Below, one piece after another: positions 33,201 to 55,661 of a stretch of 64,000 nt of DNA; the first letter of the stretch is position 1; each line of letters starts with the position of its first letter. The position numbers and the translations under genes were made by a program. Location of the stretch: contig JAKLPS010000012.1 of the NCBI GenBank assembly GCA_022013695.1, positions 1 to 64,000 of the forward strand, written 5' to 3'. The stretch comes from Weeksellaceae bacterium. Lineage in GTDB: Bacteria; Bacteroidota; Bacteroidia; Flavobacteriales; Weeksellaceae. Below the pieces are notes generated by a model, which was given only the letters and a program-made list of their open reading frames with translations, was not told the origin of the DNA and ran no database searches.

Positions 33201-33632
33201 TTAGCAAAATGCGATTTTATCAACTCTGTTCTGATGTCTGCCACCTTCGAAATCTGTGGTCAGGAATTGATCTACAATCTCAATGGCCAGCTCTTTAGAA
33301 ATGAATCTCGCGGGAATCGACATCATGTTGGCGTCGTTGTGTTGCCTTGCTAGACTTGCAATTTCAGGCATCCAGCAAAGGGCACATCTTATCTTTTGAT
33401 GTTTGTTTGCCGTAATTTGAACACCGTTTCCGCTTCCGCAGATCAAAATACCCAATTCATTTTCTCCATTTTCAACCGACTCGGCGGCCGGATGCACAAA
33501 ATCAGGGTAATCCACAGAATCGGTAGAGTGGGTTCCAAAATCCTGTACTTCATACTGGCCTTCTATATATTTCTTAATGAGTTCTTTATACTCAAAACCT
33601 GCGTGGTCAGAGGCTATAGCTATCTTTTTCAT
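33201..33632 (-). CDS. rpiB: ribose 5-phosphate isomerase B
   Basis: RpiB interconverts ribose 5-phosphate and ribulose 5-phosphate in the pentose phosphate pathway. The 143-residue protein has SDHAGFEYKELI at the N-terminus and the ILICGSGNGVQITANKH loop. The catalytic Cys of that loop sits at CGSGNG (residue 65). The late motif ARQHNDANMMSIPAR completes the site. It lies leftward of the large gap before pgk. Confidence 0.95.
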   Translation of the reverse strand: MKKIAIASDHAGFEYKELIKKYIEGQYEVQDFGTHSTDSVDYPDFVHPAAESVENGENELGILICGSGNGVQITANKHQKIRCALCWMPEIASLARQHNDANMMSIPARFISKELAIEIVDQFLTTDFEGGRHQNRVDKIAFC

Positions 33633-33649
33633 TATTTAAATTTTAGCGA

Positions 33650-34205
33650 TTTATGATGTTATAAAATTAACACTTATTAATTTAAAATGGGCACCATATT
33701 TTAATTTGATATTCAAATAATTCAATGATATCCTATAAAAATAATTACGATTACTCTGCTATTTTGAATAATAAATAAGCAACAACAATTAACATTGGTA
33801 ATATGATAATACAATGTTTAAAATTGAAAGAAAACCTGTTGATAACTTCTTTCAAATATTTGTTTTGACCAACGCCTATTTTTTGTAATGAACCCTTTTG
33901 TTACCAATACAATTCTTTTTTTCAAATTAGTTTTCATTCTGTTGAACAAGAATTATCCGCAGAAAGGTTTTCAATACAATTATCGAAAACATTTACAAAC
34001 AGTTGTTGATAAAATTCGTAATCAATTGATTATCAATCAAAAAGTAATGTTAGCAACCTGCTAATTAATACACAATTCTTGTGATGAAATAATTACAATT
34101 TATTTCTCCGCATACTCTCACGCTACAACAACATACGACACTATTACTTTTATTATTTAAAAAAAAATTGTTCTATACTGTTAAAATGTTTGTGGATTCT
34201 TTTTT
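33650..34205. other. candidate replication origin (oriC) region
   Basis: This 669-bp gap between rpiB and pgk is the longest gene-free, non-repetitive stretch in the window and is very A+T-rich. It holds four words like the DnaA box TTATCCACA: TGTTGATAA at 33837-33845 and 34004-34012, TTATCCGCA at 33953-33961 (each 8 of 9, counting both strands), and TGTGGATTC at 34191-34199 (7 of 9). An A/T run lies at 34149-34170. Two perfect parS sites lie 2.4 and 4.3 kb away. No dnaA gene is here, which is common for the phylum. The call is inference. Confidence 0.45.
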
Positions 34206-34214
34206 GAAATTAAA

Positions 34215-34246
34215 TTTCTGAAAGGCCATAATAAGTTTTAAATTTG
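34215..34246 (+). promoter_or_regulatory. putative pgk promoter
   Basis: TTTC at 34215-34218 (one mismatch to the -33 TTTG) is followed after 20 bases by TAAATTTG at 34239-34246, an exact -7 match. The leader to the pgk ATG is about 50 bases. Confidence 0.55.
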
Positions 34247-34301
34247 TGAAGTAAATAGTCCTAAATATTTTTTTTCGCACGCTAAGCATAAAATAAACGT
34301 A

Positions 34302-35492
34302 ATGAAAACAATAAAAGATTTCGATTTCAAAAATAGAAAAGCGCTGGTAAGGGTCGATTTTAATGTGCCCCAGGATGAAAATTTGAAAGTGACGGACAAC
34401 ACTCGGATTGTTTCTGTAAAGCCAACGGTCGATAAAATTCTATCGGATGGTGGTTCTGTAATCCTAATGACGCACCTTGGAAGACCAAAAGGCGAAGTCA
34501 GCGATCAATATTCTCTTAAACATATTTTGGATGAAGTTGCGTCAGTTCTCGGGCGACCAGTAAAATTTGTGGAAGAATCAATAGGAGATAAGGCCGAACA
34601 AGCAGCGGCTAAACTTTTGCCAGGTGAAATTTTGTTGTTGGAAAATTTGCGCTTCCATAATGAAGAAGAAAAAGGCGATGAAGCTTTTGCAGAAAAGTTA
34701 TCAAAGTTGGGAGATTGTTATGTAAATGATGCTTTCGGAACTGCACACAGGGCACACGCGTCAACCGCCGTAATTGCTCAGTTTTTTCCTTCTACTAAAT
34801 TTTTCGGTTTGTTAATGGAAAAGGAATTAATTGCCATTGATAAAGTTCTGCATTCTGGCGAAAAACCTGTAACAGCGATATTAGGAGGCTCAAAAGTCTC
34901 TACAAAAATTACGATTATTGAGAATATTCTTCCGGCCATTGATAATTTGATTATCGGGGGTGGTATGTCTTTTACATTTATAAAAGCATTAGGTGGAAAA
35001 ATTGGTAAATCCATTGTGGAAGAAGATAAACTGGGTTTGGCAATCGAGATTTTAGAAAAGGCAAAGCAACACCATGTAGAGGTTTACCTGCCATCAGATG
35101 TTGTGATTGCTGATGATTTTAATAACGATGCAGAAAGAAAAATTACAGAAATAGGTGAAATTCCCGAAGATTGGCAAGGGTTGGACGCAGGTCCTAAATC
35201 CAGAGAAATATTTAATGATGTATTATTAAATTCCAGAACGATTCTTTGGAATGGTCCAATTGGTGTTTTCGAAATGCCCAATTTTGCGGCCGGAACTATA
35301 GCTTTAGGAGATAGCATCGCCGAGGCAACCAAGTTGGGTGCATTTTCACTGGTTGGTGGCGGAGATAGTGTTGCTTTTGTAAAACAGTTTGGATATGCAG
35401 ACAAAGTTAGTTATGTCTCAACTGGAGGTGGTGCGATGTTGGAAAGTTTGGAAGGTCTCGAGCTTCCAGGTGTTGCGGCGATTAATGGGTAG
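34302..35492 (+). CDS. pgk: phosphoglycerate kinase
   Basis: Pgk makes ATP and 3-phosphoglycerate from 1,3-bisphosphoglycerate in glycolysis. The 396-residue protein has the signature KALVRVDFNVPQDENLKVTD, then LMTHLGRPKGE for substrate binding, the hinge VNDAFGTAHRAHAS, and the nucleotide-site motif VGGGDSVAFVKQF near the C-terminus. It stands alone, divergent from rpiB. Confidence 0.97.
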   Translation: MKTIKDFDFKNRKALVRVDFNVPQDENLKVTDNTRIVSVKPTVDKILSDGGSVILMTHLGRPKGEVSDQYSLKHILDEVASVLGRPVKFVEESIGDKAEQAAAKLLPGEILLLENLRFHNEEEKGDEAFAEKLSKLGDCYVNDAFGTAHRAHASTAVIAQFFPSTKFFGLLMEKELIAIDKVLHSGEKPVTAILGGSKVSTKITIIENILPAIDNLIIGGGMSFTFIKALGGKIGKSIVEEDKLGLAIEILEKAKQHHVEVYLPSDVVIADDFNNDAERKITEIGEIPEDWQGLDAGPKSREIFNDVLLNSRTILWNGPIGVFEMPNFAAGTIALGDSIAEATKLGAFSLVGGGDSVAFVKQFGYADKVSYVSTGGGAMLESLEGLELPGVAAING

Positions 35493-35687: not shown

Positions 35688-36509
35688 CTATCTTTTTTCG
35701 ATAATATATATCAGACTGGAAAATTCGTAATTAAATAAGGCTTTTATATTAGAAATTGTTCCGTGAACTACAGCTTTTAGCAAAATAAGAGTTGATTTTT
35801 TATATTTTTCGCTCAACATTGAGATATAAAATGAGTCGAGTAGAAGTGGCTTAATTTTTCTCAATTTCCAATTAGGATTATTTGAAATCAAATTTTCCAT
35901 TCCATTTTTCGAAAAATGATAGATGTGTCTGGGCACATCATAAGCGGCCCAAAATTCTTTATAATGTTTGGCGTCGTAGGAATTGTGATTGGGAACAGCT
36001 ATAATTAGAATTCCTTTTTGTTTTAATTTGGAATGAAAGATATCCAACATTTCCTTTTGATTTTCCACATGTTCGAAAACATGCCAAAGTGTGATGGCAT
36101 CTAGACTTTGATCTTCGACAGACTTTAAATCTTCGATTATTTTAGTGTTAGACGTTTTGCTAAGGGCGGCATTTCTTGCAGCAGAATTGGGTTCAAATCC
36201 AAACGTATCAAAATCATTTTCTATATATTTTACAAATTCTCCAGCACCGCAACCGTAATCTAAAACTGCTGAACCTTTTTTTAGTCTGTCCAAAAGAAGC
36301 GTTTTTTTGTATTGAAGATTGAAAGATTGTAAAAATTTGTAAATTTTCTCCTTGGAACTTCCGGTATCTTGATGATGAGAGATATAGTTTTCACTCTCAT
36401 AGTACTTAGAAATGTCAGAAGGAATGGGAAAGGTTTTGAAAACGCCTTTTGTGTCAGTTTCTGTAAGTTCGAATTCTTCGCAAGAGAGAAAATGATCTTT
36501 AATTTTCAT
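35688..36509 (-). CDS. class I SAM-dependent methyltransferase
   Basis: The 273-residue protein has a Methyltransf_23-type core: SAM motif I AVLDYGCGAGEFV near residue 84, the acidic loop FGFEPNSAA, motif IV DAITLWHVFEHV near 138 and motif VI GILIIAVPNH. The N-terminus (DHFLSCEEFELTETDTKGVF) recalls methyltransferases of cell-surface polysaccharide genes. It lacks the usual zinc Cys motif. No polysaccharide cluster lies nearby, so the substrate is unknown. Confidence 0.85.
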   Translation of the reverse strand: MKIKDHFLSCEEFELTETDTKGVFKTFPIPSDISKYYESENYISHHQDTGSSKEKIYKFLQSFNLQYKKTLLLDRLKKGSAVLDYGCGAGEFVKYIENDFDTFGFEPNSAARNAALSKTSNTKIIEDLKSVEDQSLDAITLWHVFEHVENQKEMLDIFHSKLKQKGILIIAVPNHNSYDAKHYKEFWAAYDVPRHIYHFSKNGMENLISNNPNWKLRKIKPLLLDSFYISMLSEKYKKSTLILLKAVVHGTISNIKALFNYEFSSLIYIIEKR

Positions 36510-36581: not shown

Positions 36582-36597
36582 TGTTTCACGTGAAACA
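36582..36597. promoter_or_regulatory. parS centromere-like site 1
   Basis: TGTTTCACGTGAAACA is a perfect 16-base palindrome and matches the bacterial parS consensus TGTTNCACGTGAAACA exactly. It lies between mnmG and the methyltransferase gene. ParB binds such sites near the replication origin to help separate chromosomes. No parA or parB gene is in the window. Confidence 0.85.
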
Positions 36598-36604
36598 TTG
36601 TTAA

Positions 36605-38467
36605 TTATCTTCCCAAATACACCAATAGAACATTAATGTCAGACGGTGACACTCCGCTTATTCGGCCGGCTTGCGCGATTGTTACAGGTCTTACTTTGCC
36701 CATTTTTTGTTTCGCTTCGGTTGATAGAGAAGCTATTCTGGAATAGTCGAAATCCTCAGGTATTTTAATTGTTTCCAAGCGGTTGAGTTTTGCTACGTTT
36801 TCCTTTTCTTTTTCGATGTATCCTTTGTATTTGATATTGATTTCGGCCTGTTCTCTTACTTCTTCTTTGTAAGCAGAGGTAATATCTTTGATCGTTTGAA
36901 TTTCTTCTAGTTTATTCAAAGTCATATTGGGACGAGAAAGAAAATGAGAAGCTCTATAAGCCTGGTCAACAGGAGAAGATTCTATAGATTCTAATATAGG
37001 ATTTATAGCTAAAGGTTTGATTGAAGTTTCTCTCAAGTATTCTTCAAGTTCATCACTTTTTGCGATTTTTTCGTGCACATTTTTAAGTCTTTCTCGCTTT
37101 GCTAAGCCCAAATTATAAGCTTTTTCAGTCAGTCTAATGTCCGCATTGTCTTGTCTAAGAAGCAATCGATATTCTGCCCTGGATGTGAACATTCTGTAAG
37201 GTTCCTCCGTCCCTTTGGTTATCAAATCATCGATTAGAACACCAATATAGGCTTCGTCTCTGTTTAGGATGAAATCTCCCTTGTCGTGCACTTTATTGTG
37301 CGCATTAATGCCTGCCATCAGTCCTTGTCCTGCGGCTTCTTCATACCCAGTAGTTCCATTGATTTGGCCAGCGAAATAAAGATTTTGAATCAACTTTGTC
37401 TCCAAAGTGTGAGAGAGCTGTGTGGGCGGAAAATAATCATATTCAATGGCATATCCAGGACGAAAAACTTTGACATTTTCGAAACCGGGAATGTGTTTCA
37501 TCGCTTTTATTTGTACATCTTCCGGAAGAGATGAGCTAAATCCGTTCAAGTATATTTCGATAGTTTTCCAGCCTTCTGGTTCCACAAATAGCTGGTGTCT
37601 GTTTCTCTCGGCAAAACGGTTGATTTTATCTTCAATACTTGGGCAGTACCTCGGTCCGGTGCTTTGAATTGTTCCATTGAACATTGGGCTCCTGTCAAAT
37701 CCTTCCCGTAAAATATTGTGAACCGTTTCGTTTGTGTAAATGATGTGGCAGCTTAGTTGTTTTGTAAGCTTAGCGGTATCAGAAAAGCTGAATTTTTGTG
37801 GAATTTCGTCGCCTTTCTGTTCTTCCATTTTTGAGTAATCCAGACTTCTTCCGTCCACTCTGGGAGGCGTTCCTGTCTTCATTCTTCCAGCATCGAAGCC
37901 AAGTGAAACCAATTGTTCGGTAAGGCCAAAAGCTCTCGGCTCGCCCATTCTACCGCCTCCTAACTGTTTGTCGCCCACGTGAATTAGACCGTTCAGAAAC
38001 GTTCCATTGGTTAGAACTACCGATTTTGATTTTATTTGGATTCCCAGAGAAGTTATGATGCCGGCAGCCTTACCATTTTCTATGATTAAGCTTTTGACCA
38101 TATCCTGAAAGAAGTCCAGGTTCGGTGTGTTTTCTAATGCTAGACGCCATTCTTCGGCAAAAAGCATTCTGTCATTTTGGGTTCGTGGAGACCACATCGC
38201 TGGTCCTTTAGAAAGATTCAGCATTTTGAATTGGATGGCAGATTTGTCCGCAACAATGCCCGAATAGCCGCCCATTGCATCAATTTCGCGCACGATTTGA
38301 CCCTTGGCAATGCCGCCCATTGCTGGATTGCAACTCATCTGTCCGATGGTCTGCATATTCATTGTGATCAATAATGTTTTTGAGCCCAAATTAGCAGAAG
38401 CAGCAGCGGCTTCGCAGCCAGCGTGACCTGCTCCAACCACGATAACGTCATATATTTCGCTTATCAT
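36605..38467 (-). CDS. mnmG: tRNA uridine-5-carboxymethylaminomethyl modification enzyme MnmG
   Basis: MnmG (GidA) works with MnmE to modify U34 of several tRNAs, using FAD and NADH. The 620-residue protein has the N-terminal FAD motif DVIVVGAGHAGCEAAAASAN, the GGGRMGEPRAFGLTEQL segment near residue 170 and the ATGYEEAAGQGLMAG-type motif (TTGYEEAAGQGLMAGINAHN) near 370. The C-terminal helical domain contacts MnmE and tRNA. It is flanked by two parS sites; gidA genes are often close to oriC in bacteria. Confidence 0.96.
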   Translation of the reverse strand: MISEIYDVIVVGAGHAGCEAAAASANLGSKTLLITMNMQTIGQMSCNPAMGGIAKGQIVREIDAMGGYSGIVADKSAIQFKMLNLSKGPAMWSPRTQNDRMLFAEEWRLALENTPNLDFFQDMVKSLIIENGKAAGIITSLGIQIKSKSVVLTNGTFLNGLIHVGDKQLGGGRMGEPRAFGLTEQLVSLGFDAGRMKTGTPPRVDGRSLDYSKMEEQKGDEIPQKFSFSDTAKLTKQLSCHIIYTNETVHNILREGFDRSPMFNGTIQSTGPRYCPSIEDKINRFAERNRHQLFVEPEGWKTIEIYLNGFSSSLPEDVQIKAMKHIPGFENVKVFRPGYAIEYDYFPPTQLSHTLETKLIQNLYFAGQINGTTGYEEAAGQGLMAGINAHNKVHDKGDFILNRDEAYIGVLIDDLITKGTEEPYRMFTSRAEYRLLLRQDNADIRLTEKAYNLGLAKRERLKNVHEKIAKSDELEEYLRETSIKPLAINPILESIESSPVDQAYRASHFLSRPNMTLNKLEEIQTIKDITSAYKEEVREQAEINIKYKGYIEKEKENVAKLNRLETIKIPEDFDYSRIASLSTEAKQKMGKVRPVTIAQAGRISGVSPSDINVLLVYLGR

Positions 38468-38488
38468 AATTCATAATTTTAAAACAAA

Positions 38489-38504
38489 TGTTTCACGTGA
38501 AACA
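38489..38504. promoter_or_regulatory. parS centromere-like site 2
   Basis: This is a second perfect TGTTTCACGTGAAACA, extended here to a 20-base palindrome (38487-38506). It lies 22 bases upstream of the mnmG start, 1.9 kb from site 1. Two exact copies of a 16-base parS word in 2 kb are not expected by chance. Confidence 0.85.
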
Positions 38505-38610
38505 TTAACAGAGCATTGGAACAATTGTCCCGATTGCAGCGTTTACCCCGCAACTAGCAGATGGGTTTGCTTTGGCGTGAGGAGTAGGAGCAGAAAGGGG
38601 GAAGTGGCTC

Positions 38611-39027
38611 CTAAAAATTTGAATATCGATCGATATAGAAATTTTCTTTTTCTCGCATAGCGGACTTTTCTTCTTTGGTTTTGTCTTTGTATCCGCAAAG
38701 ATGAAGAAGACCGTGCGCCAAAACTCTTCTGAATTCTGATTCTGTGTCGAGAGAAAGAGTGGAAGCATTGTCCAAAATGCGCGGCAAAGATACGAAAATA
38801 TCTCCGGAAATGGTTTTTCCTCGTACATAGTCAAAAGTTATAATATCGGTATAGTAATCGTGATGGAGATAGTCTTGATTGATTTTCAGGAGACGGTCAT
38901 CATCGCAAAAGATATAATTGATCTCGCCGAGCTTTTTGTTTTCTGAAATAATCAGATTTTCTAACCAATCCGTTGTATTTGGATTAATTTCTTGAGCTTC
39001 TATATTTTCAAAAAAATAATGTATCAT
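38611..39027 (-). CDS. ybeY: endoribonuclease YbeY
   Basis: YbeY is a zinc-dependent RNase needed for 16S rRNA 3' end maturation and ribosome quality control. The 138-residue protein has the metal motif HGLLHLCGYKD. The family pattern is HxxxHxxxxxH; here the third position is Asp, a substitution I believe is common in Bacteroidota and still able to bind metal. The stretch YYTDIITFDY near residue 60 also matches. A longer overlapping frame to 38505 is a shadow. Confidence 0.93.
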   Translation of the reverse strand: MIHYFFENIEAQEINPNTTDWLENLIISENKKLGEINYIFCDDDRLLKINQDYLHHDYYTDIITFDYVRGKTISGDIFVSLPRILDNASTLSLDTESEFRRVLAHGLLHLCGYKDKTKEEKSAMREKENFYIDRYSNF

Positions 39028-41190: not shown

Positions 41191-43635
41191 TTAGGTTTTG
41201 ATATAGATGCGTTTGACCCGCGGCGAGATCGAGGTTAAAACTTCGTAATTAATTGTATTACAGTATTTTGAAAATTCTAATAGGCTGGGATTAGAATTAA
41301 AAATTATTACCGGATCGCCTTCTTTTGCGTTTGCATTATCCACGTTGATCATCATCATATCCATACAAACATTACCTACGATGGGGCAGAGTTTTTTGTT
41401 GACGCCCACATTCCCCATCATATTCCCGACTATCCGCGGGATTCCATCGGCGTAGCCCACGGGAATGGTAGCAATTTTTGTACAATGATCCGCTTTATAT
41501 TTTCTTCCATAACCAACGGATTCGCCGTATTTTACCTCGGAAATTTGCGAAACAACGGTTTTGAAAGTGACCGAAGCCTGAAGTTGGTTTTTAATCAATT
41601 CATTTGAAGATTCTCCAATCATGCCAATTCCAATTCTAACCATATCATATTGATAATCTGTATAGTTGGTGATTCCCGAAGAGTTCAAAATATGTCGCAA
41701 AGGTTGGTAGCCAAGTTGCTTAATGAGATAAGCAGAATCTTTTTCAAATGTTTTTAATTGATTATAAGTAAACTCTTCTTCATCCGGCACATCGGAAGCC
41801 GACAGATGACTGAAAATACTTTGAACTCTGACATTCATCGCCTGTAGATGATCCATCAATTCGTCCAGTTCCGGCTCTTTAAAACCCAACCGATGCATTC
41901 CAGTTTCTAGTTTAATGTGAATCGGGTACTTCTGCTGATTGCCAGATTTGACCAACTGCTCGCCGAAAAGTTCCAAAACACGCAGGCTATAAATTTCCGG
42001 CTCCAAATTATACTCGATAATGCTGTCGTAGCTGTGCTGTTCGGGGTTCATCACAATTATGGGCGTAGTGATTCCCTTTTTTCTCAGTTCCACGCCTTCA
42101 TCGGCAAAGGCCACGCCCAAATAATCGATATGATGCAATTGCAGAAATTCGGAAATTTCGTAACTTCCTAAGCCATAAGCATTTGCCTTTACCATCGCCA
42201 TCATTTTGGTCTCCGGTTTCAGGAGAGATTTGTGAAAATTAATATTGTGAAGGATGGCATTCAAATTAATTTCCAAAACGGTATCGTGTTTGCGAAGTTC
42301 AAGCGCTTCTTTGATTTTCTCGATCCCAAATTTCCGCGCCCCTTTCAACAAAACGATTTGATTTTCTAGGTCATTAAGGATCTTACTTTCAATCAGTTGG
42401 CTCGTGCTGACAAAGGTGAAAGTATCGGAATTAAATAGGTCGTGATAAGCACTAATTTCGTCTCCGATCAAAAAAACTTTATCAAAATTCTGCTCATTGA
42501 CGAGGTCGGCCACTTCAGAATACAATTCTTCCGAATTTTCATAAGAATCCAAAATATCGGTCAGAATAAGAGATTTTTTCGGTTTGTTATATTCACTGAT
42601 AAATTGAAAAGCAATTTTCAAAGAATCCAGATCCAGGTTGTAAGAATCGTTTATAATCAGGTTGTTTCTTATGCCTTCAATGCTTTCCAGACGCATTTCC
42701 ACGGCTTTCAGATCGTCAATTTTTTCTTTAATATCCGAATTTGAAATTTGAAATTCTTTTAGAATGCCGATCAGCGCCAGGACGTTTGTCAACGTTGCTT
42801 CGTCTCTTTGGAAGATGGGAAGCGTAATGATTTCATCCAGATATTTCATTTCAATATCCTGCGAGCGGTCGTTGATGTCAGAAATGATTGTGATGTCATT
42901 GCCGCTTTCCAAGCCATACGATATTAATTTTTTGTGAGAATATAATTGATTTATAATACTATCCGTCAGCGGGTTATCTGCATTATAAAAAATAATTTCC
43001 GACCGATTGAACAATTTTAATTTTTCTCGGATCAATTCTTCCTCGCCCTGAAAGTTAGCCGAATGTGCGGAACCGAGATGCGTTAAAAGACCGATTTTTG
43101 GTTGAAAAATGTATTCCTGAATCTCCATTTCACCCGGTTTGGATATTCCCACTTCGAAGATTCCCAACTCGTGCTTTTGGTCAATTTGCAAAATAGACAA
43201 GGGCAAACCGATTTGAGAATTAAAACTTTTCGGACTTTTCACTGTCGCAAACTCATTCCACAGGCACTGGTACAGCCATTCTTTCAGTATCGTCTTGCCA
43301 TTGCTACCGGTAATTCCGATCGAATTAATCTCAGAATTTTCAAAATGATAGTGCGCCAAAGTCTGCAAGAACTCGATGGCATTTTTTGTAATAATTTGAT
43401 TGACAGAAGGATTTGAAATCTCATTTTCTGTAATAATGGTTGCAATGCCTTTCTCGATGACGCTGTCGATATATTTTTGCCCAGAATTTTTCTTCGTACT
43501 GATGGCGAGAAAAGCCGTTCGATTGGTAGAGTAGATTGTTCGACTGTCAAAAGCAATATTTTTGATCTTGATTTCTCCATTCCCAATGAACCTGGAATTG
43601 GTGATGTATGCTATCTCACGGATGGTGTAATTCAT
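41191..43635 (-). CDS. murF-alr: bifunctional UDP-N-acetylmuramoyl-tripeptide--D-Ala-D-Ala ligase / alanine racemase
   Basis: One 814-residue protein fuses two enzymes of cell-wall precursor supply. Residues 1 to about 440 are MurF (ATP loop IGITGSNGKT at 107-115, adding D-Ala-D-Ala to UDP-MurNAc-tripeptide). Residues from about 447 are alanine racemase (MAMVKANAYGLG with the PLP lysine, and the substrate-side RIGIGMIGESS near 700). The fusion is typical of Bacteroidota. It makes D-Ala and uses the D-Ala-D-Ala product in one chain. Confidence 0.95.
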   Translation of the reverse strand: MNYTIREIAYITNSRFIGNGEIKIKNIAFDSRTIYSTNRTAFLAISTKKNSGQKYIDSVIEKGIATIITENEISNPSVNQIITKNAIEFLQTLAHYHFENSEINSIGITGSNGKTILKEWLYQCLWNEFATVKSPKSFNSQIGLPLSILQIDQKHELGIFEVGISKPGEMEIQEYIFQPKIGLLTHLGSAHSANFQGEEELIREKLKLFNRSEIIFYNADNPLTDSIINQLYSHKKLISYGLESGNDITIISDINDRSQDIEMKYLDEIITLPIFQRDEATLTNVLALIGILKEFQISNSDIKEKIDDLKAVEMRLESIEGIRNNLIINDSYNLDLDSLKIAFQFISEYNKPKKSLILTDILDSYENSEELYSEVADLVNEQNFDKVFLIGDEISAYHDLFNSDTFTFVSTSQLIESKILNDLENQIVLLKGARKFGIEKIKEALELRKHDTVLEINLNAILHNINFHKSLLKPETKMMAMVKANAYGLGSYEISEFLQLHHIDYLGVAFADEGVELRKKGITTPIIVMNPEQHSYDSIIEYNLEPEIYSLRVLELFGEQLVKSGNQQKYPIHIKLETGMHRLGFKEPELDELMDHLQAMNVRVQSIFSHLSASDVPDEEEFTYNQLKTFEKDSAYLIKQLGYQPLRHILNSSGITNYTDYQYDMVRIGIGMIGESSNELIKNQLQASVTFKTVVSQISEVKYGESVGYGRKYKADHCTKIATIPVGYADGIPRIVGNMMGNVGVNKKLCPIVGNVCMDMMMINVDNANAKEGDPVIIFNSNPSLLEFSKYCNTINYEVLTSISPRVKRIYIKT

Positions 43636-44241: not shown

Positions 44242-44367
44242 TATTAATTTAGCAAAAAATTCTTTTAAAATTCTGTCCAGAAAAACCGGACAAAGTCCTT
44301 TTCTATAACAAAATTGTTCTTAAATTTATAAACATCAAATTTAAGTAAAAATTAATCAAAAATTATT

Positions 44368-45435
44368 ATGCAAAACTTGCAACAACGATACGAAGATATT
44401 TTTGGAGAAATTAAATTAATCTTAGAAAAATTGTCGGAATCCAGCTCTTACGAAGATCTTTTGAGCGAGGAAGCAGAGATCACGGCACTCTACCAACAAT
44501 TCTGTTTTTTGAAAGTGTCAACAACTCTGAACGTGGCTTCAACAGAAGGAACAGCCTTAGAACATATTGATAATCAATCAACAAAACTTAATTCTGAAAT
44601 GGTCTCCTTAGAAAAATTCGAAAATGAAAAAGAGGTGGCAGAGATCATTTTGGAGCAAGCTGAGCCTCGCGAGATTTTAGAGGAGTTTCCACCATTGGAA
44701 GAAGTGCACTCGTTCGCCGAAATTGACTTGGCTGAACATTCTGGAGAAGCGCCGATTTCTCAAGACAATCCAGTGACGGAAATCAAAATGGAATCTGACC
44801 TTGAGGGTACTCTCCTGCAAGATATTTCTCAGAAACTAGAGCCGATGCAAGACAGCCAGTTTTCTTTCGCAATGGAAAAAGAAGAATCGAAAACGGATGA
44901 TGATTATGAAGCCAGAATGGCCGAGAAAGAAGCAAAACTGAAAGAACTTGAAGAAAAACGAAGAAAAATTGTTGAATTTTCCAAGGAAAAAAGCAAAACA
45001 TCTGACACAAAGAAAGCAGAATATGAAAGAGCGGAGAAAGAGTTACAAGACAAGAAATTCAAATTAGCCCATATCAAAGGTTTGAAAATTGCGAAATCTC
45101 TTTTTGATGATGACCATTTGGAAGCACTAGAACAGGAGCCATCAAAGCAAGATTCAGGAAGCCTTCTGAAAAATAATGTTCCGACCGATTATATGGAAGC
45201 GCCGAAACAAAAACCGGAATTCAAGCTGGATTTGAACGACAGAATTGCATTCTCACAGCATCTCTTTAGTGGCAGCCAAAGTGAACTCAATCAAGTGGTT
45301 GCGGTTCTTAATTCTTTCACTTCTCTTGAAAAAGCTCAGGAATTTTTAAGTGATATCTATTATGAAAAAGACTGGAAAAAAGCGGATAATTACGCCCAGA
45401 GACTTTGGACTTTGGTGGAGAATAGATTTTTGTAG
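44368..45435 (+). CDS. conserved hypothetical coiled-coil protein
   Basis: The 355-residue protein is acidic in its first half. A Lys/Glu-rich helix (about residues 185-245, AKLKELEEKRRKIVEFSKEK) probably forms a coiled coil. The C-terminal 80 residues (LNDRIAFSQHLFSGSQSELN then FLSDIYYEKDWKKADNYAQR) form a compact conserved block found in hypothetical proteins of Flavobacteriia. There is no signal peptide. No function is known to me. It is divergent from tdk and is followed by the repeat array. Confidence 0.85.
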   Translation: MQNLQQRYEDIFGEIKLILEKLSESSSYEDLLSEEAEITALYQQFCFLKVSTTLNVASTEGTALEHIDNQSTKLNSEMVSLEKFENEKEVAEIILEQAEPREILEEFPPLEEVHSFAEIDLAEHSGEAPISQDNPVTEIKMESDLEGTLLQDISQKLEPMQDSQFSFAMEKEESKTDDDYEARMAEKEAKLKELEEKRRKIVEFSKEKSKTSDTKKAEYERAEKELQDKKFKLAHIKGLKIAKSLFDDDHLEALEQEPSKQDSGSLLKNNVPTDYMEAPKQKPEFKLDLNDRIAFSQHLFSGSQSELNQVVAVLNSFTSLEKAQEFLSDIYYEKDWKKADNYAQRLWTLVENRFL

Positions 45436-45459: not shown

Positions 45460-46136
45460 GCGAGTTCTGTAGTTTTGAAATCGCAGGTTTGTTAAATCGG
45501 TCGTCGCATTGCGAATTTGATTTTAGGTGGAGTTCTAGATGAACGAGTGACGTCGTAGTTGAAGTCCCTAAGATTAAAATCTTAGCTTTGAAAAATGGGT
45601 CGTCGCTTTGCGACTTTGGTGAGGTGCAGTTATGCAGGAACGGTTAATCTCTTAAGGTCGAATCCCTAAGATTGAAATCTTAGTTTGAAAAAATCGGTCG
45701 TCGCTTTGCGACTTTGGTGAGGTGCAGTTATGCAGAAACGGTTGATCTCTTAAGGTCGAATCCCTAAGATTCAAATCTTAGGTTTGGAAAAATCGGTCGT
45801 CGCTTTGCGACTTTGGTTAGTAGAGTTCTATAGGAACGACAGATATCGTAAGGTCGAATCCCTAAGATTAAAATCTTAGGTTTGAAAAATCGGTCGTCGC
45901 TTTGCGACTTCGTTTTGAGCCGAGCTTCCGTAGGAACGACGGATATCGTAAGGTTGGAATTTATTCCAACCTGAACAAGAAAGCACCGCTTTGCGACTTT
46001 GGTTAGTGGAGTTCCGTAGGAACGACGGATATCGTAAGGTTGGAATTTATTCCAACCTGAACAAAAAAAGTTTGCTTTTAGGCAGAGTTCCATAGGAACG
46101 GGCTATGTACAAAGGTTGGAATTCATTCCAACGCCA
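45460..46136. repeat. 98-bp-period tandem array of hairpins
   Basis: Seven palindromes lie in a row. Four are CTAAGATTnAAATCTTAG at 45568, 45666, 45764 and 45862, spaced exactly 98 bases. Three are GGTTGGAATTnATTCCAAC at 45952, 46038 and 46114, spaced 90, 86 and 76. Between them runs a shared unit with GGTCGTCGCTTTGCGAC and AGTTCCGTAGGAACGAC-GGATATCGTAAGG. No gene is encoded. The array fills the gap after the 44368 gene and ends 13 bases before the rsmI ATG. Confidence 0.8.
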
Positions 46137-48868: not shown

Positions 48869-49747
48869 ATGAAAACTATCCCTAATTATTTAGAATATGG
48901 TGAAAATTCGCTCAAACATCCAATAGATTATTTTTCAATAAATACCATTGAAAGCTTGGCTCAGAAAATAAGGGTGCTAGAACCCCACTGCCATAGCCAT
49001 CTTTTTCAGTTAGTTTGGATATCGGAAGGTAAATACATCGTCACAATCGATGAAGAAGAACATGAAATACAAAACGATCATTTTCTGCTCCTTTATCCAA
49101 ACACAATTCACGCAACAAATTTTACTAAAACAGTGCGTGGATATTCCATGCATTTCAGCTCAGATTTTTTTGAAATCCATTCGGAAAATAAAAGTCACTT
49201 AGCAAGAGTGATCAGGCACAATATTTCAAAAAGATTCTTAATCGTGAAGATGGATAGCTGCTTCTCACAAGAAGTGAATGATCTAATTCAACATATGAAT
49301 ACCACCTATCTTAGTGGGTCATTTTTGAAAGATGAGATTATTAGATCCTATTTACATCTCGTATTATTAAAACTCTATGAGTGCAATAATTTGCAGGAAA
49401 GTAGCACCCGTCACAGATCCTCTCAAGTGATTGTGAATAAATTTTTTCAAGCGGTTGAAGAACATTTCGTAAGCAAAAAGACGGTATCCGAATATGCACG
49501 CGATTTGAACCTTTCAGAAGGATATCTTAATCATGTAGTAAAAAACGAAACGGGACATCCGGCCGGGGAAGTGATAAGAGAGAGACTACTCCATGAGGCT
49601 GAGAGATTACTTATTTATTCGGACAGAACAATTTCTGAAATTGCCTATCAGCTAGACTTTAGTCATCCCACCTATTTTTTTAGGATGTTCAAGAAATACA
49701 TAGGCAAAACACCTAAGGACTTCCGGAACAGCTATCGTAAAAGATAA
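48869..49747 (+). CDS. AraC family transcriptional regulator
   Basis: The 292-residue protein has an N-terminal cupin-type sensor domain (PHCHSHLFQLVWISEGKYIV, about 38-100). The C-terminal pair of helix-turn-helix motifs covers about 195-290 (VSEYARDLNLSEGYLNHVVK and ISEIAYQLDFSHPTYFFRMF with the typical FKKYIGKTPKDFR end). It is transcribed in the same direction as the ring-cleavage genes that follow 157 bases later and is probably their activator, responding to the aromatic substrate or a product. That role is inference. Confidence 0.9.
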   Translation: MKTIPNYLEYGENSLKHPIDYFSINTIESLAQKIRVLEPHCHSHLFQLVWISEGKYIVTIDEEEHEIQNDHFLLLYPNTIHATNFTKTVRGYSMHFSSDFFEIHSENKSHLARVIRHNISKRFLIVKMDSCFSQEVNDLIQHMNTTYLSGSFLKDEIIRSYLHLVLLKLYECNNLQESSTRHRSSQVIVNKFFQAVEEHFVSKKTVSEYARDLNLSEGYLNHVVKNETGHPAGEVIRERLLHEAERLLIYSDRTISEIAYQLDFSHPTYFFRMFKKYIGKTPKDFRNSYRKR

Positions 49748-49803
49748 ACAAACTTCCATTTTTCCGAAATCCCCTATCCATCGAAGAAAAAAAGACAATA
49801 TTC

Positions 49804-49840
49804 GAATTGTGCACTTTTAAGACTATATAATGCACAACTC
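49804..49840. promoter_or_regulatory. inverted repeat in front of the ring-cleavage operon
   Basis: GAATTGTGCA at 49804-49813 and TGCACAACTC at 49831-49840 are complementary in 9 of 10 bases around a 17-base spacer. The repeat lies 64 bases before the hydrolase ATG and 57 after the AraC gene stop. It is a candidate operator. AraC proteins often prefer direct repeats, so the partner is uncertain. Confidence 0.45.
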
Positions 49841-49903
49841 GGATCCTTTAAAGTTTTAATATTGAAGAAATGTTTAGTTAATCTTTAAATAATATTAAAA
49901 CTT

Positions 49904-50755
49904 ATGGAAGAAGTAGTTAACCGTATAGTCAAAAGTGCCAATAATACGTATATCAATGAGTGTGGGGCAAGTCATAAAGAAGCGATCTTGTTTTTGCACG
50001 GTTCTGGTCCCGGAGCAGGTGCATGGTCCAATTGGCAGTATATCATGCCCGAATTTGGTGAAAAATTCCATTGTATAGCACCAGATCTAATTGGTTTTGG
50101 GAAAAGCAATCATCCGGAAAAACCACCTAAAGGAATGCGTAACTGGATGCGGCTATGGATGGACCAAATTATTTCCCTATTAGACGAGCTAAAGTTGGAA
50201 AAGGTGCACATGGTCGGAAACTCAATGGGAGGAGCTATTAGCCTTCAGCTTTTAATGGATTTTCCCGAACGGTTTGATCGGGTTGTACTCATGGGGCCCG
50301 CCGGTGCACCAACCACTATTACTACAGAATTAGACAGAACATGGGGATATTACGACGATCCTTCACCGGAACTTATGGCAAATATAATTTCCTGGTTTTC
50401 ATACGATAATACTGTTATAGGAGATCAATTGCGAGAAATTGCAAAAATGAGGCATAAGGCTTCCTCAGATCCCAATATCCGTAGATCATTTGAGGCTATG
50501 TTCCCAGCTCCCAGACAACAACATATCGATGAATTGGTAATCCCCGATGGTTCTTTGAGAAACATGAATCATCCTATCCTGCTCATTCATGGGCAGGAGG
50601 ATCTATTAGTCAATGTAGAAACCAGTCATTATCTCATCAAGCATCTTCCAAATGCGCAAATGCACATTTTTAGTCACTGCAGCCACTGGACTCAAATAGA
50701 ATATAAAGAATCTTTTCATTTTTTGTTGAAGGGTTTTTTTGAAAATAAATATTAA
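49904..50755 (+). CDS. meta-cleavage product C-C hydrolase (alpha/beta hydrolase)
   Basis: This enzyme would hydrolyse the carbon-carbon bond of the ring-fission product made by the neighbouring extradiol dioxygenase. The 283-residue protein has HGSGPGAGAWSNW (oxyanion region), the nucleophile elbow GNSMGG (S107), Asp in HGQEDLLV (D233) and His in HCSHWTQIE (H261). The HGSGPGA and HW.QIE words are typical of XylF/BphD/MhpC-type hydrolases. It is the first gene of the cluster. Confidence 0.88.
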   Translation: MEEVVNRIVKSANNTYINECGASHKEAILFLHGSGPGAGAWSNWQYIMPEFGEKFHCIAPDLIGFGKSNHPEKPPKGMRNWMRLWMDQIISLLDELKLEKVHMVGNSMGGAISLQLLMDFPERFDRVVLMGPAGAPTTITTELDRTWGYYDDPSPELMANIISWFSYDNTVIGDQLREIAKMRHKASSDPNIRRSFEAMFPAPRQQHIDELVIPDGSLRNMNHPILLIHGQEDLLVNVETSHYLIKHLPNAQMHIFSHCSHWTQIEYKESFHFLLKGFFENKY

Positions 50756-50771
50756 CCAAAATCAATTTACA

Positions 50772-51719
50772 ATGCAAAAAAAACTAGCAAAACTAGGGCA
50801 TGTAGCCCTTGTAACACCCAATCTTGAAAAATCACATTGGTTTTTTCATGATGTTGTGGGATTAAACGAACAAAAGCGCGAAGGAAATAAAATCTATTAT
50901 CGCGCATGGGGAGAATTTGAACATCATTCTTTGATTTTAATTGAAGGAGATGTAGCGATGCTGGACCATATTGCCTGGAAAACCCACGAGCCTGAGGATG
51001 TCGATTATTTTTATGACAAGGTAAAAAATGCCGGCTTAAATCCCGGTTGGGTTCCTGAAGGTGAAGAGGCTGGTCTGGGAAAGGCGTTTCGCTTTGATTT
51101 ACCAACGGGACAGACTTATGAAATCTACTTTGATATGGAAAGACCATTGGCTCCTGAAGGCCAAAGATCTAGGCTTAAAAATCAAACATATAGAGCTTGG
51201 GATCATGGAATCTCTCCTCGTTGCATAGATCATGTTAATTTCAATGTGGGTAATCCTGGGGAATGTATGCAATTACATGAAGAACTTTTTGGATTCAAAA
51301 ATCGTGAATACATCCAACTCGACAATGGATTTGGAATGGCTTATTGGACATCTGTAACTACCTTAGTACACGATTTGGCTATAATGTTTGACGAAGCAGG
51401 ACGTCAAAACAGATTACACCACACGGCCTTTTATCTTGATAATTTCCAGGACGTGGCAAGAGCCGCAGATATTTATAGGGAAAATGGCATTGAGCTTAGT
51501 TTAGCTCCTGGAAAACACGGCATCTCCCAAGCCGGGTTCGTTTATGCAATTGATCCGGGAAGCGGACACAGGCTGGAACTGTTTAGCGGCGGTTATCATA
51601 TTTACGATCCCGACTGGAAACCAGTGCTTTGGAGAGAAAATGAATTGGCTGAGGGTATCATTTGGTGGGGACCAGAGTTGTCTCCTGATTTTTTAGCGAA
51701 TTCTATCGGTCCCGAATAA
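50772..51719 (+). CDS. extradiol ring-cleavage dioxygenase (catechol 2,3-dioxygenase type)
   Basis: This is a two-domain type I extradiol dioxygenase of 315 residues that opens a catechol next to its two hydroxyls using Fe(II) and oxygen. By spacing with XylE, the iron ligands are H154 (IDHVNF), H217 (RLHHTAF) and E269 (HRLELF). The acid/base residues H200, H249 and Y258 are also in place, and YDPDW.PV.W ends the protein as in XylE. The start at 50772 is used, 17 bases after the hydrolase stop. The catechol substrate is unknown. Confidence 0.9.
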   Translation: MQKKLAKLGHVALVTPNLEKSHWFFHDVVGLNEQKREGNKIYYRAWGEFEHHSLILIEGDVAMLDHIAWKTHEPEDVDYFYDKVKNAGLNPGWVPEGEEAGLGKAFRFDLPTGQTYEIYFDMERPLAPEGQRSRLKNQTYRAWDHGISPRCIDHVNFNVGNPGECMQLHEELFGFKNREYIQLDNGFGMAYWTSVTTLVHDLAIMFDEAGRQNRLHHTAFYLDNFQDVARAADIYRENGIELSLAPGKHGISQAGFVYAIDPGSGHRLELFSGGYHIYDPDWKPVLWRENELAEGIIWWGPELSPDFLANSIGPE

Positions 51720-51736
51720 TAAAAAAAACGATACAA

Positions 51737-52690
51737 ATGAAAAGTTTAAACAAATTTATTTCAAGAGAAATACGAACGTCATTATTGTTAATTTCGTTTT
51801 CTTGCCTGCCTGTAGTTCTTCAAGCGCAAGTGAATTTACCTGCAAATGATTTAGGGTTAACAAGTATTAATGACGGAGTTGCTGGCCCAGCGATCCTTTA
51901 CGAGGCTTTCCTGGGCAGCCAAAATTCAACTAGACTAAACGATGCAAATGGTGACAAAATTCCTGGGGACAATAGCCTGCACAATTTTCTTTTCATCAAT
52001 CATTTGGCCATAGTCTCCAAGAAACCAATGCTCGATGGTTTTCCGGTGGCAGAAATCTTAATTCCCCTAGTTAATGTGGGAATTGAGGTGCCTCCTGTTT
52101 TAGATGAAAACAAATTTGGACTTGGCGATGCTATTATAGGAGCAGGTATTCAATGGCCAAATAAAAAACTATTCGGCAAAACATACTTTCACCGTTTTTT
52201 ATTGAATGTCATCGTGCCAACGGGAACTTACGATAAAGAAAAGGTAGTGAATGTTGGATCTAATGTGTGGAGCATTATGCCCTATTATGCCTTCACAATA
52301 TATTGGGACGCAAGTAATAAATGGGAAACTTCAATGCGGTTCCGCTATATGTGGAATTCCAAGAACAATGATCCATTTGTGGGTCTTGGCGTTGATGAAA
52401 CCCAACCAGGTCAAGCTTTCTATATGAATTATGGAGTCTCTTACAATGTCGGGAAAGAATTTAGAGTTGGGGCCGCAGGCTATTTTTTACAGCAATTGAC
52501 AGATCATCAAATAGCGGGGAACTCTATACCTAATTCAAAAGAAATGGCATTTGCGGTCGGTCCTGCATTTTTTAAACAGTATAAAACTTATATGTTTCGA
52601 TTAACAGCAGCCTTTGATGTAGCTGCTAAAAATAGATGGTCCCAGACTCCTTTTGTTAATTTCACATTCACAAAGGTTTGGCCTAAATAA
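51737..52690 (+). CDS. outer-membrane channel of the phenol-degradation MetA type
   Basis: The 317-residue product has a signal peptide (cleaved near VVLQAQ, residue 32) and a mature beta-barrel with aromatic strand ends. It matches the Phenol_MetA_deg (SphA-like) family, whose genes often sit in aromatic degradation clusters and may let hydrophobic aromatics cross the outer membrane. RFLLNVIVPTGTYDKEKVVN and NNDPFVGLG are typical segments. It lies 17 bases after the dioxygenase gene. Confidence 0.85.
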   Translation: MKSLNKFISREIRTSLLLISFSCLPVVLQAQVNLPANDLGLTSINDGVAGPAILYEAFLGSQNSTRLNDANGDKIPGDNSLHNFLFINHLAIVSKKPMLDGFPVAEILIPLVNVGIEVPPVLDENKFGLGDAIIGAGIQWPNKKLFGKTYFHRFLLNVIVPTGTYDKEKVVNVGSNVWSIMPYYAFTIYWDASNKWETSMRFRYMWNSKNNDPFVGLGVDETQPGQAFYMNYGVSYNVGKEFRVGAAGYFLQQLTDHQIAGNSIPNSKEMAFAVGPAFFKQYKTYMFRLTAAFDVAAKNRWSQTPFVNFTFTKVWPK

Positions 52691-52751
52691 TGTTGGCTTT
52701 AGAAATTAGTTATAGATAATATTCACCATCTTTTAAAAAATAATATGATAT

Positions 52752-53102
52752 ATGGATAAAAGTAAATATGTACAAATGAATGAACTTCCCCATCTTCAGG
52801 TGGGGAATTTAAAGCTTTTTCCTTTTGCAGGGGATAAGCTAATGACGGTGCAGGCAGACCTACCAAAAGGAAGTATAGCTGCCAAACATTCTCATCCTCA
52901 CGAACAAATGAGTTATGTGGTCAAAGGTCAGGTGAAAGTAAGAATGAAAGGTGAAGAATTTACTTTGTCGCAAGGCGGAGTTGTACACTTTCCTTCTAAT
53001 GAAGAGCACGAATTGGAAGCTGTAGAAGACACTCTTCTTCTCGACATCTTCACCCCAGTGAGAGAAGATTTTATCCAAAAATTAAAAGATGCTGCTAAAT
53101 GA
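52752..53102 (+). CDS. small cupin-domain protein
   Basis: The 116-residue protein is a single cupin barrel. The first metal motif is AAKHSHPHEQMSYVVKGQ and the second VHFPSNEEHELEAVED, giving the two-His, Glu, His set. Small cupins like this act as isomerases, decarboxylases or ring-opening dioxygenases. Here it could process the ring-cleavage product; the exact reaction is not known. It overlaps the following SDR gene by 4 bases (ATGATGG). Confidence 0.85.
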   Translation: MDKSKYVQMNELPHLQVGNLKLFPFAGDKLMTVQADLPKGSIAAKHSHPHEQMSYVVKGQVKVRMKGEEFTLSQGGVVHFPSNEEHELEAVEDTLLLDIFTPVREDFIQKLKDAAK

Positions 53103-53863
53103 TGGAAAGAAAAATTGCATTGCTTACAGGAGCTTCTAAGGGCATCGGATATGCCACTGCAGAAATGATGGCCAAAAAAGGATATGAATTGATCATCAAC
53201 AGCAGGAATACAGCTGATGCGGTGAAAAAACTCCAGGAATATGGCGCAATAGTAGAGGGAGTGGATGGAAGTTTGGGCGATGCTGCCACCATCTCAGCTT
53301 TAATAGCCAAAGTAGAAGAAAAAGGTCAAATAGATGCTTTGCTCCTCAACCATGGAGGACCTCCTGTAAAACCTTTTATGGAAGTATCCAATGCAGAATG
53401 GGAAACTTATACCAGTATCATGCTGCACGGCCCCCTTAGGCTTTTGCGAGAATTGACACCCCTCATGCAGAAACAGCAGGAGTGTAGAGTGGTAGCAATA
53501 GGTTCTTTTACTGTTAAAAGCCCACGCGCGGGGATTGTCTTATCTAACAGTTTGAGGGCAGCCTTAGTTAACGCGTTAAAGACCGCAGCTATGGAATTAG
53601 GCAGTGATGGGATATTAATCAATACAGTAGCTCCGGGTTACATTGCTACGCAACGAATTCTGGATTTTAATCAGCGGTACGCAGATCAAGAGAACATCAG
53701 CAAAGAAGAGGTCGACCAAAGAACAATCCAAGAAATTCCGTTGAAGAAATTTGGCGAGCCCGAAGATGTGGCAGCATTAATCACTTTTCTGCTGTCGGAA
53801 GAAAACCAGTATATCACGGGTCAGAATATACATGTAGACGGAGGATTAATTACAGCCAATTGA
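53099..53863 (+). CDS. atypical SDR oxidoreductase 1 (no YxxxK motif)
   Basis: The 254-residue protein has the Rossmann loop TGASKGIGYA and an SDR C-terminus (GQNIHVDGGL). The catalytic positions are changed: NNAG is replaced by NHGGP and the YxxxK motif reads SNSLR (S149...R153), so both Tyr and Lys are lost, while Ser136 remains. This fits the BKR-like SDR subgroup whose catalytic tetrad is not conserved. Its reaction is unknown. Confidence 0.85.
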   Translation: MMERKIALLTGASKGIGYATAEMMAKKGYELIINSRNTADAVKKLQEYGAIVEGVDGSLGDAATISALIAKVEEKGQIDALLLNHGGPPVKPFMEVSNAEWETYTSIMLHGPLRLLRELTPLMQKQQECRVVAIGSFTVKSPRAGIVLSNSLRAALVNALKTAAMELGSDGILINTVAPGYIATQRILDFNQRYADQENISKEEVDQRTIQEIPLKKFGEPEDVAALITFLLSEENQYITGQNIHVDGGLITAN

Positions 53864-53867
53864 TAAA

Positions 53868-54653
53868 ATGGATTTACAACTTAAGAACAAAATAGCCTTT
53901 GTAGCTGGAGCCAGCCAAGGTATGGGAGCAGCTGTAGCAGAAGAGCTATCCAGAGAAGGAGCAATAGTGTACGCATGTGCTCGCACAAAAGAAAGTATTC
54001 AAGAAAAAGCAAAAAATATTGAAGGAAAGACTGGAAACAAAGTCATTCCTTTAGTATGCGACGTTACCAACGAAAGCGACATCATAAAAGCTTTTGATAC
54101 GGTACAAGAACAACAAGGAAAACTGGATTTGCTTTTCACCAATTCAGGAGCCCCTTCTGCGGGAAATCTATCCTCCCTTTCTTCCGAAGATTGGGACAAA
54201 GGTTACACGACCATTATAGCATCTGTGAGGCATCTCTGTTACCATGCTTTGAAAATTCTTAGTGAGAAAGGGAGTATTGTGCTCAATACTTCAAGTTATA
54301 TACGGCAGCCGTCCGTAGATTACACCCTGGCTTCCAATCTGCGACTGGCTGTGGCTGGTATGGTCAAAACTTTTTCAGAAGAATTGGCTCCTAAGGGTAT
54401 TCGGGTAAACGGTATTGCCCCGGGATATACGAATACCGAAGTTGTGGCTAAATATGTAGAGATGGTGGCAAAGCAAAAAAGTCAAGACATAGAAGAGACA
54501 GAAAAACAAATGGCGGCAAACATTCCTTTAGGTCGTTTTGCAGCACCGGAAGAGATTGGTAGAGTTGCCACGTTTTTGCTTTCTCCCGCAGCTTCCTTTG
54601 TCACCGGATCAATATGGACTGTTGATGGTGGAGAATCAAAATTCCCAATTTAG
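53868..54653 (+). CDS. atypical SDR oxidoreductase 2 (no YxxxK motif)
   Basis: The 261-residue protein has GASQGMGAAVA at the cofactor loop and TVDGGES near the end. The motif positions again differ from classical SDRs: TNSGAP in place of NNAG, and ASNLR (A155...R159) in place of YxxxK. It is from the same subgroup as its neighbour, and the two genes are 4 bases apart. The pair probably arose by old duplication and may form a heteromer; that is inference. Confidence 0.85.
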   Translation: MDLQLKNKIAFVAGASQGMGAAVAEELSREGAIVYACARTKESIQEKAKNIEGKTGNKVIPLVCDVTNESDIIKAFDTVQEQQGKLDLLFTNSGAPSAGNLSSLSSEDWDKGYTTIIASVRHLCYHALKILSEKGSIVLNTSSYIRQPSVDYTLASNLRLAVAGMVKTFSEELAPKGIRVNGIAPGYTNTEVVAKYVEMVAKQKSQDIEETEKQMAANIPLGRFAAPEEIGRVATFLLSPAASFVTGSIWTVDGGESKFPI

Positions 54654-54656
54654 GAC

Positions 54657-55661
54657 ATGAAAAACCCAAGGTATATTATTTCAGTCAGCAATAAAGTCAG
54701 CGATGAGGAGATTGAATACTATAGAAGGGAACTTGAGGGAATGGCAGAAGTTCATTTTCTTAATGGCTTATCCCCAGAAATTCAGAATGAAAAACTCAAA
54801 GACTCGAACATCTTAATTGCTCGAAATCCCACCGTTGAACTTCCCGAAGTGGAGGATCGAGCCTTTAAAGGAATTCGGTTTATCCAACTCCTTTCGGCTG
54901 GTTATGACCATCTGGATTTTAGCAGGTTTCCCAAGGACACCATTGTAGCCGGTAATATGGGCGCCTATGCAAAGCCAATGGCAGAGCATGGCGTGGGTAT
55001 GATCTTATCATTGGCCAAAAATTTAAGACTAAGGCATGAAGAAATGAAACAGGGAATATTCAATCAATTTGACAGTAAATCTATGCTGATTGACCAAAAA
55101 GTTTGTGGAATAATCGGTTATGGAAGTATTGGAAAGCGTATTGGGCAGATAATGAAGTCGGCTTTTGATTGTAAAATATTCGCCATAAACACCAGCGGCA
55201 ACAGTACGGAAAAAACCGACTGGATTGGAACACTAGACGAATTGGATTTCCTGCTCTCTAATTCAGATTTTGTGGTCATCACAATCCCACTAACAGAAGA
55301 GACTAACAATCTTATCGGCCACGCAGAACTCAATAAAATGAAAGATAATGCTATCCTGGTCAACCTGGCCCGGGGACAAATCATTGAGGAAGAGCCTTTA
55401 TTCCAAAAGCTTAAAGCGACCCCAACCTTCAAGGCGGCTATAGATGCCTGGTGGATAGAACCTTTTTTTGTAAATAAATTTGAATTGAATTTTCCGTTTT
55501 TAGAATTACCAAACGTCTTGGGATCCCCGCACAATTCCGCAATGGTCGAAGGAGTGCTGCTTCATTCAAGCAAGATGGGAATAGAGAATGTGAAAAAGTA
55601 TATCACCACAGGAAAAGCGGAAAGAATCCTGGACCTGTCCAACCATAAAACTTTTCAATAG
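54657..55661 (+). CDS. D-2-hydroxyacid dehydrogenase family protein
   Basis: The 334-residue protein has the NAD-binding loop IIGYGSIGKRIG (near residue 155) and the catalytic Arg in LVNLARG, Glu in IEEEPLF and His in SPHNSAM. It would reduce a 2-oxoacid or oxidise a 2-hydroxyacid, which suits a late step after ring fission, where 2-oxoacids arise. It is 3 bases past the SDR 2 stop and is the last gene of the cluster. Confidence 0.88.
   Translation: MKNPRYIISVSNKVSDEEIEYYRRELEGMAEVHFLNGLSPEIQNEKLKDSNILIARNPTVELPEVEDRAFKGIRFIQLLSAGYDHLDFSRFPKDTIVAGNMGAYAKPMAEHGVGMILSLAKNLRLRHEEMKQGIFNQFDSKSMLIDQKVCGIIGYGSIGKRIGQIMKSAFDCKIFAINTSGNSTEKTDWIGTLDELDFLLSNSDFVVITIPLTEETNNLIGHAELNKMKDNAILVNLARGQIIEEEPLFQKLKATPTFKAAIDAWWIEPFFVNKFELNFPFLELPNVLGSPHNSAMVEGVLLHSSKMGIENVKKYITTGKAERILDLSNHKTFQ

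Follow-up and report, generated by a model that had tools for sequence, protein, structure and literature searches.

Background

In chromosomal ParABS systems, clamps of ParB load at parS sites and slide along the DNA, and ParA pulls the origin regions apart. SMC-ScpAB is a common but not universal loading partner, and parAB genes are commonly, but not universally, found close to parS and the origin. We analysed a 64,000-nucleotide stretch (referred to throughout as the window) of contig JAKLPS010000012.1 from a draft genome of a Weeksellaceae bacterium (GCA_022013695.1), in which two palindromes flank mnmG. The locus resembles the chromosomal ParABS of Bacillus, Caulobacter and Pseudomonas in having the same 16-bp parS word, a ParA gene beside that of ParB, a ParB with parS-reading residues (by the ParB/Noc comparison in the available part of PMC7383237) and sites that are predicted, from relatives, to be at the origin. 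It differs from these systems in that parAB lies away from the sites, in that there are only two sites and these are tied to mnmG, and in that no SMC-length protein was found with the SMC_N profile.

According to the available text of PMC10197239, parS clusters were used together with GC skew to locate origins in 12 gut bacteria, of which two are Bacteroidetes. As in our case, the parS cluster lies at the skew switch and the origin is not systematically at dnaA. In contrast to our case, the sites in that text are not tied to mnmG, the organisms are gut bacteria of other lineages, and Hi-C and coverage data were used where we have sequence alone. An oriC at mnmG, as here, was predicted with Ori-Finder 2022 and GC skew in Mariniflexile litorale, explicitly not at the dnaA start (PMC11278836), and in Algorimicrobium (PMC12843772); the accessible portions of these two papers do not discuss parS. 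A figure legend in PMC11278836 swaps oriC and ter relative to its text. Because oriC predictions at mnmG and parS clusters at origins other than dnaA have both been published, this kind of locus is already known. None of the papers found by a search of literature outside subscription journals describes, in the text covered, a group-wide bracketing of mnmG by parS. The result added by our analysis is that the parS/mnmG locus, rather than dnaA, would mark the origin in this group, which is solid but largely expected.

Two probable parS sites flank mnmG

An earlier note on this DNA had reported the 16-base word TGTTTCACGTGAAACA exactly on both sides of mnmG, with the second copy extending to a 20-base palindrome. 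Both copies were found where it had placed them, the longer palindrome was recovered, and the gene between them was confirmed as mnmG (865.8 bits with TIGR00136, whose cut-off is 524.85). Coordinates are shown in Table 1.

Table 1. Features of the parS/mnmG region and of the candidate oriC, numbered from the first base of the window
Feature	Position	Strand	Remarks
rpiB, ribose 5-phosphate isomerase B	33201..33632	-	flanks candidate oriC; TIGR01120 above cut-off
candidate oriC	33633..34301	.	gap of 669 bp with 24% GC; rpiB and pgk diverge from it
DnaA-box-like TTATCAACA	33837..33845	-	TTATCCACA at the equivalent place in L044
DnaA-box-like TTATCCGCA	33953..33961	+	one mismatch to TTATCCACA; L044 has TTATCCCCA there, another one-mismatch form
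DnaA-box-like TTATCAACA	34004..34012	-	identical in L044
pgk, phosphoglycerate kinase	34302..35492	+	flanks candidate oriC; near full-length match to first part of NF010569
methyltransferase-like gene	35688..36509	-	downstream neighbour of mnmG; methyltransferase matches all below cut-off
putative parS site 1, TGTTTCACGTGAAACA	36582..36597	.	7 bases beyond mnmG stop codon
mnmG (gidA)	36605..38467	-	tRNA uridine-5-carboxymethylaminomethyl(34) synthesis enzyme, 620 aa; between both parS sites
putative parS site 2	38487..38506	.	20-base perfect palindrome; core TGTTTCACGTGAAACA at 38489-38504, 21 bases ahead of mnmG start codon
ybeY	38611..39027	-	upstream neighbour of mnmG; TIGR00043 above cut-off

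The two exact copies are the sole matches to the word in the window, even when three mismatches are allowed. Shuffles of the window gave a mean of 0.45 matches with up to three mismatches, and two or more in 8 of 100 shuffles; as it counts such mismatched words, this statistic underrates the improbability of two exact copies. Across the whole 2.61-Mb draft genome (G000, 33 contigs) the exact word occurs at two places, both at mnmG, compared with none for the reversed control word; near-copies of the word itself, differing at one or two bases, are absent. Allowing up to three mismatches gave 11 places, nine of them with three mismatches, against 20 for the reversed control; the nine are therefore at chance level, and both parS sites stand alone in the genome.

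ParB, ParA and condensin genes

The draft genome encodes a single protein with a ParB_N domain, on contig C19, and an AAA_31 (ParA-type) gene scoring 228 bits lies immediately upstream of parB. The parAB genes and dnaA are on contigs other than that of parS and mnmG. The earlier note had regarded many copies spread over the genome, or a genome lacking ParB, as evidence against its reading; the genome holds two copies, both at mnmG, and one ParB gene with ParA adjoining. Its proposal of a probable chromosome partition locus is supported by this two-copy count and by the presence of ParB with ParA.

The ParB protein scored above cut-off for ParB_N, HTH_ParB and the dimerisation domain ParB_C (PF02195, PF17762 and PF23552, respectively), and its top matches among solved structures were ParB and Spo0J. 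With NCBIfam, the Noc model ranked first, its 238 bits falling short of the cut-off of 315; the 175 bits scored with the general ParB domain model exceed that model's cut-off. The translation contains GERRYRAS, which we take to be the CTP-binding GERRxRA-type motif of ParB. The contact residues of Caulobacter ParB are given in the available part of PMC7383237 as Q162, G170, K171, S172, R173, N178, G201 and R204, with R173 and G201 altered in Noc. When mapped by hand, the present protein keeps all of these except S172, where it has E, as does ParB chain 7bnk; the present protein has S at position 179 and R at 184. With R173 and G201 present, the predicted reading residues are of the parS type and not of the Noc type. 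Additional ParB_N matches beyond the main one were seen in 4 of the 19 other genomes searched (G039, G084, G120 and G123).

For condensin, G000 was searched with the SMC_N profile. No protein of SMC length was found, as none of the 12 matches has an open frame longer than 945 aa, and the two matches above cut-off are RecN-like and RecF-like. This agrees with PMC10197239, which in the text available reports no known condensin in its two Bacteroidetes.

Conservation of the sites around mnmG

Among the best 80 of 594 confirmed MnmG places, the nearest named MnmG proteins are those of Flavobacteriaceae bacterium PS02293 (93%) and of Chryseobacterium and Kaistella species (88-90%). These 80 named loci, from Flavobacteriia, comprise L044-L067 (24 loci) and L068-L123 (56 loci), and the methyltransferase-like gene lies downstream of mnmG in 78 of them. 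We searched the relatives with a degenerate parS word, TGTTYCACGTGRAACA. A site with at most one mismatch to this word was present within 250 bp upstream of mnmG in 80/80 loci, and a further site within 150 bp downstream in 76/80 (24/24 in L044-L067 and 52/56 in L068-L123); the background outside the mnmG region was 19 such sites per 865,484 positions. The second site is about 0.5 kb beyond the mnmG stop in two exceptions (L070 and L080) and carries two mismatches in the other two (L072 and L085). Both sides of mnmG that bear a site in the window thus have one conserved there in relatives. Several parS-like sites upstream of mnmG were observed in Flavobacterium loci (G122, L071, L074, L090, L094 and L097).

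All 23 genomes of the window's genus have exactly two TGTTYCACGTGRAACA sites. The exact 16-mer TGTTTCACGTGAAACA was found in 69 of 120 family genomes; of 12 further genomes from the genus, one has it. A loss of parS in the genus, which the last count would suggest, was dismissed, as the degenerate word gives 23/23.

An even draw of 31 genomes from the phylum contained a site in 27, and in 24 of these 27 it lay within 600 bp of mnmG. Its side varied among the 24, being upstream only in 9, downstream only in 10 and both in 5, counts that exclude sites mismatching the degenerate word. The remaining three genomes with a site have it on another contig (G147 and G135) or 7-13 kb away (G152), and the degenerate word was absent from 4 of the 31 (G151, G125, G124 and G141). 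By all appearances, the parS bracket around mnmG is old.

Location of the origin region

The distances separating the parS pair from dnaA and from parB were measured in 16 relatives with these landmarks on one contig (seven lengths are rounded); of four more genomes searched, three were omitted for being fragmented and the fourth for being the draft. The pair is separated from dnaA by 0.17-0.49 and from parB by 0.14-0.50 of the chromosome in these 16, which are not a random sample because some were picked from genomes with the exact site. The closeness of parAB to parS that is common elsewhere is not seen, either in these relatives or in G000, where they are on separate contigs.

GC skew was sampled in twenty 20-kb stretches per genome in five relatives (G062, G121, G070, G122 and G123). 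In all five, skew is negative to the left and positive to the right of the interval that holds the pair, these intervals being approximately 125-320 kb wide. After removal of the gene-direction effect at third codon positions, 44 of 50 right-hand samples were positive (10, 9, 10, 7 and 8 of 10, in the order given above), and 46 of 49 readable left-hand samples were negative (10/10 in G062, 9/10 in G121, 8/10 in G070, 9/9 in G122 and 10/10 in G123), one unreadable left-hand sample of G122 being left out. As these genomes are related, they are not five independent tests. dnaA is at 0.49 of the chromosome from the pair in G062 and at 0.48 in G123, a position where a terminus is expected.

Since the skew switches in the interval of the parS pair in 5/5 relatives, the origin is predicted at the pair and not at dnaA. 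Judged from these relatives, it is the parS/mnmG locus rather than dnaA that is predicted to mark the origin in the group, and the examined relatives evidently have dnaA and parAB a long way from it. The assumption of the earlier note that the sites are near the origin is supported in the sampled relatives, in which the switch falls within the interval holding the locus; for the organism itself, whose genome is a draft of 33 contigs, it is carried over from them.

Candidate oriC between pgk and rpiB

Of the gaps near the pair, the one between pgk and rpiB, 2.3 kb from parS site 1, is the best candidate for oriC, and we hold this assignment with moderate confidence. The divergent arrangement of the two genes is kept in 24/24 loci L044-L067, with a gap of at least 2 kb in three, and the window and L044 have non-coding blocks in common that cover two of the three boxes. 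The match of pgk to NF010569, a bifunctional phosphoglycerate kinase/triosephosphate isomerase model, is below cut-off. In 120-kb scans of six relatives, the corrected skew minimum was found downstream of mnmG each time, at a distance of 5.6-25 kb from the start of the gene. When the six relatives and the window were pooled, the two 5-kb bins flanking the mnmG start each had a mean corrected skew of -0.12; the mean was -0.02 at 5-10 kb beyond the start and 0.00 at 10-15 kb, and positive after that. The negative sign is gone about 5 kb past the mnmG start, which is where the pgk-rpiB gap is situated; single genomes scatter. The corrected skew of the window itself is weak, and its minimum, at approximately 3-9 kb according to the correction applied, lies away from the candidate gap.

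Among the 24 pgk-rpiB gaps, TTATCCACA was found in 8 and TTATCAACA in 9, and the rest of these loci contained 2 and 6 copies, respectively; 67,500 bp of low-GC sequence beyond the gaps yielded a single box. One of seven scrambled or reversed control words, TTTACCACA, was present in 7/24 gaps and 0 times outside. As this word is about as enriched, the box counts, which come from related gaps and so are not independent, partly reflect inherited sequence, and the box evidence therefore weighs less. The densest box cluster in the six 120-kb scans was on the pgk side in three (G062, G121 and G060), tied there in G090, in which rpiB was not found, and elsewhere in G070 and G026; two of the four boxes in each of G121 and G060 are inside rpiB. 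A looser box scan of the 80 loci gave clusters of at least two in most Weeksellaceae and in few other loci, and in those loci outside Weeksellaceae pgk and rpiB are not a divergent pair.

Alternative explanations

The palindromes are very probably chromosomal parS sites that mark the origin region of this Weeksellaceae (Chryseobacterium-group) chromosome. They might instead be an operator for mnmG or its neighbours, with partition not their main role, as one of them closely precedes the coding sequence of mnmG and their association with this gene extends over much of the phylum. We consider this very unlikely, given that the side of mnmG varies among the 24 phylum genomes as counted above, that a downstream site makes an odd operator, and that the motif is the parS word in a genome with one ParB. 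Perfect palindromes that adjoin both the start and the stop of a gene could also form RNA hairpins, for instance terminators, around mnmG. A scan of the window for terminator, RNA and tRNA readings of the palindromes found nothing, no Rfam family reached gathering score within it, site 1 lacks a trailing stretch of T on the strand of mnmG, and one copy precedes the gene; we give this explanation next to no credence.

Other explanations accept the sites as parS and move the origin. That parS is far from an origin at dnaA, as many genome records assume, has in its favour that dnaA is the usual landmark and that three of the records searched start there (G071, G091 and G120). An origin at dnaA was rejected on the GC skew of the five relatives, with the switch inside the parS-pair interval in each and dnaA almost half a chromosome away in G123 and G062; in PMC11278836, as far as its available text goes, a dnaA start is likewise inconsistent with that paper's own skew plot. 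For the present organism we regard it as extremely improbable. An origin in some other gap close to genuine parS sites, most likely the divergent gap at 44242-44367 between tdk and the gene at 44368, across mnmG from pgk and rpiB, is rather unlikely. Gene strand switches at 44.2-44.4 kb, the raw cumulative GC skew of the window is lowest at 44385 (-325, versus -304 at 34000), and five of the six relatives scanned finely retain the divergence. Against it, the pooled corrected skew is still -0.12 over the first 5 kb past the mnmG start and only afterwards rises, and a loose box scan of the gap gave only TTATAAACA, at 44326. We therefore keep the pgk-rpiB gap as the candidate oriC.

With the palindromes read as parS, the single ParB, encoded elsewhere beside ParA, would load at both sites as a CTP-dependent clamp and slide into mnmG and its flanks, and ParA would separate the ParB-coated origin regions just after they are copied. 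We propose this model from the known ParABS mechanism (compare PMC7053999 and PMC8367383).

Other features of the window

The 355-aa product of the gene at 44368-45435 matched nothing in NCBIfam or Pfam at E 0.001, and five of the six relatives scanned have the gene between tdk and rsmI. Between its end at 45435 and a gene starting at 46116 (rsmI-like by eye), positions 45478-46068 hold tandem repeats of about 98 bp (4.4 copies) followed by repeats of 86 bp (2 copies), with short palindromes. At 48869-55661, a series of plus-strand genes resembles, by eye, a cluster for the breakdown of aromatic compounds, with an AraC-type regulator, an alpha/beta hydrolase, an extradiol-dioxygenase-like protein and several short-chain dehydrogenases. 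Positions 41191-43635 encode an 814-aa fusion of a Mur ligase (MurF-like) and an alanine racemase, and a perfect 11-bp tandem repeat, AAATGTTCGTG, is present in 3.3 copies at 63771-63806.

Significance

A parS site beside mnmG would provide a landmark of the origin that can be read from sequence for a large phylum. Some complete genomes are numbered from dnaA, among them the three named above, and dnaA is well away from the pair in the relatives examined. A misplaced origin affects which centromere is chosen for imaging, as well as strand analyses and growth rates estimated from coverage. More tentatively, and with considerable doubt, the locus may represent an ancient centromere unit of the Bacteroidota as a whole, in which the origin and parS remained tied to mnmG as dnaA and parAB relocated; where no SMC condensin is recognisable, ParB loaded at one or both sides of mnmG might drive segregation without SMC or with an unknown partner. 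The locus may also serve as a simple two-site system for ParB function without a known condensin.
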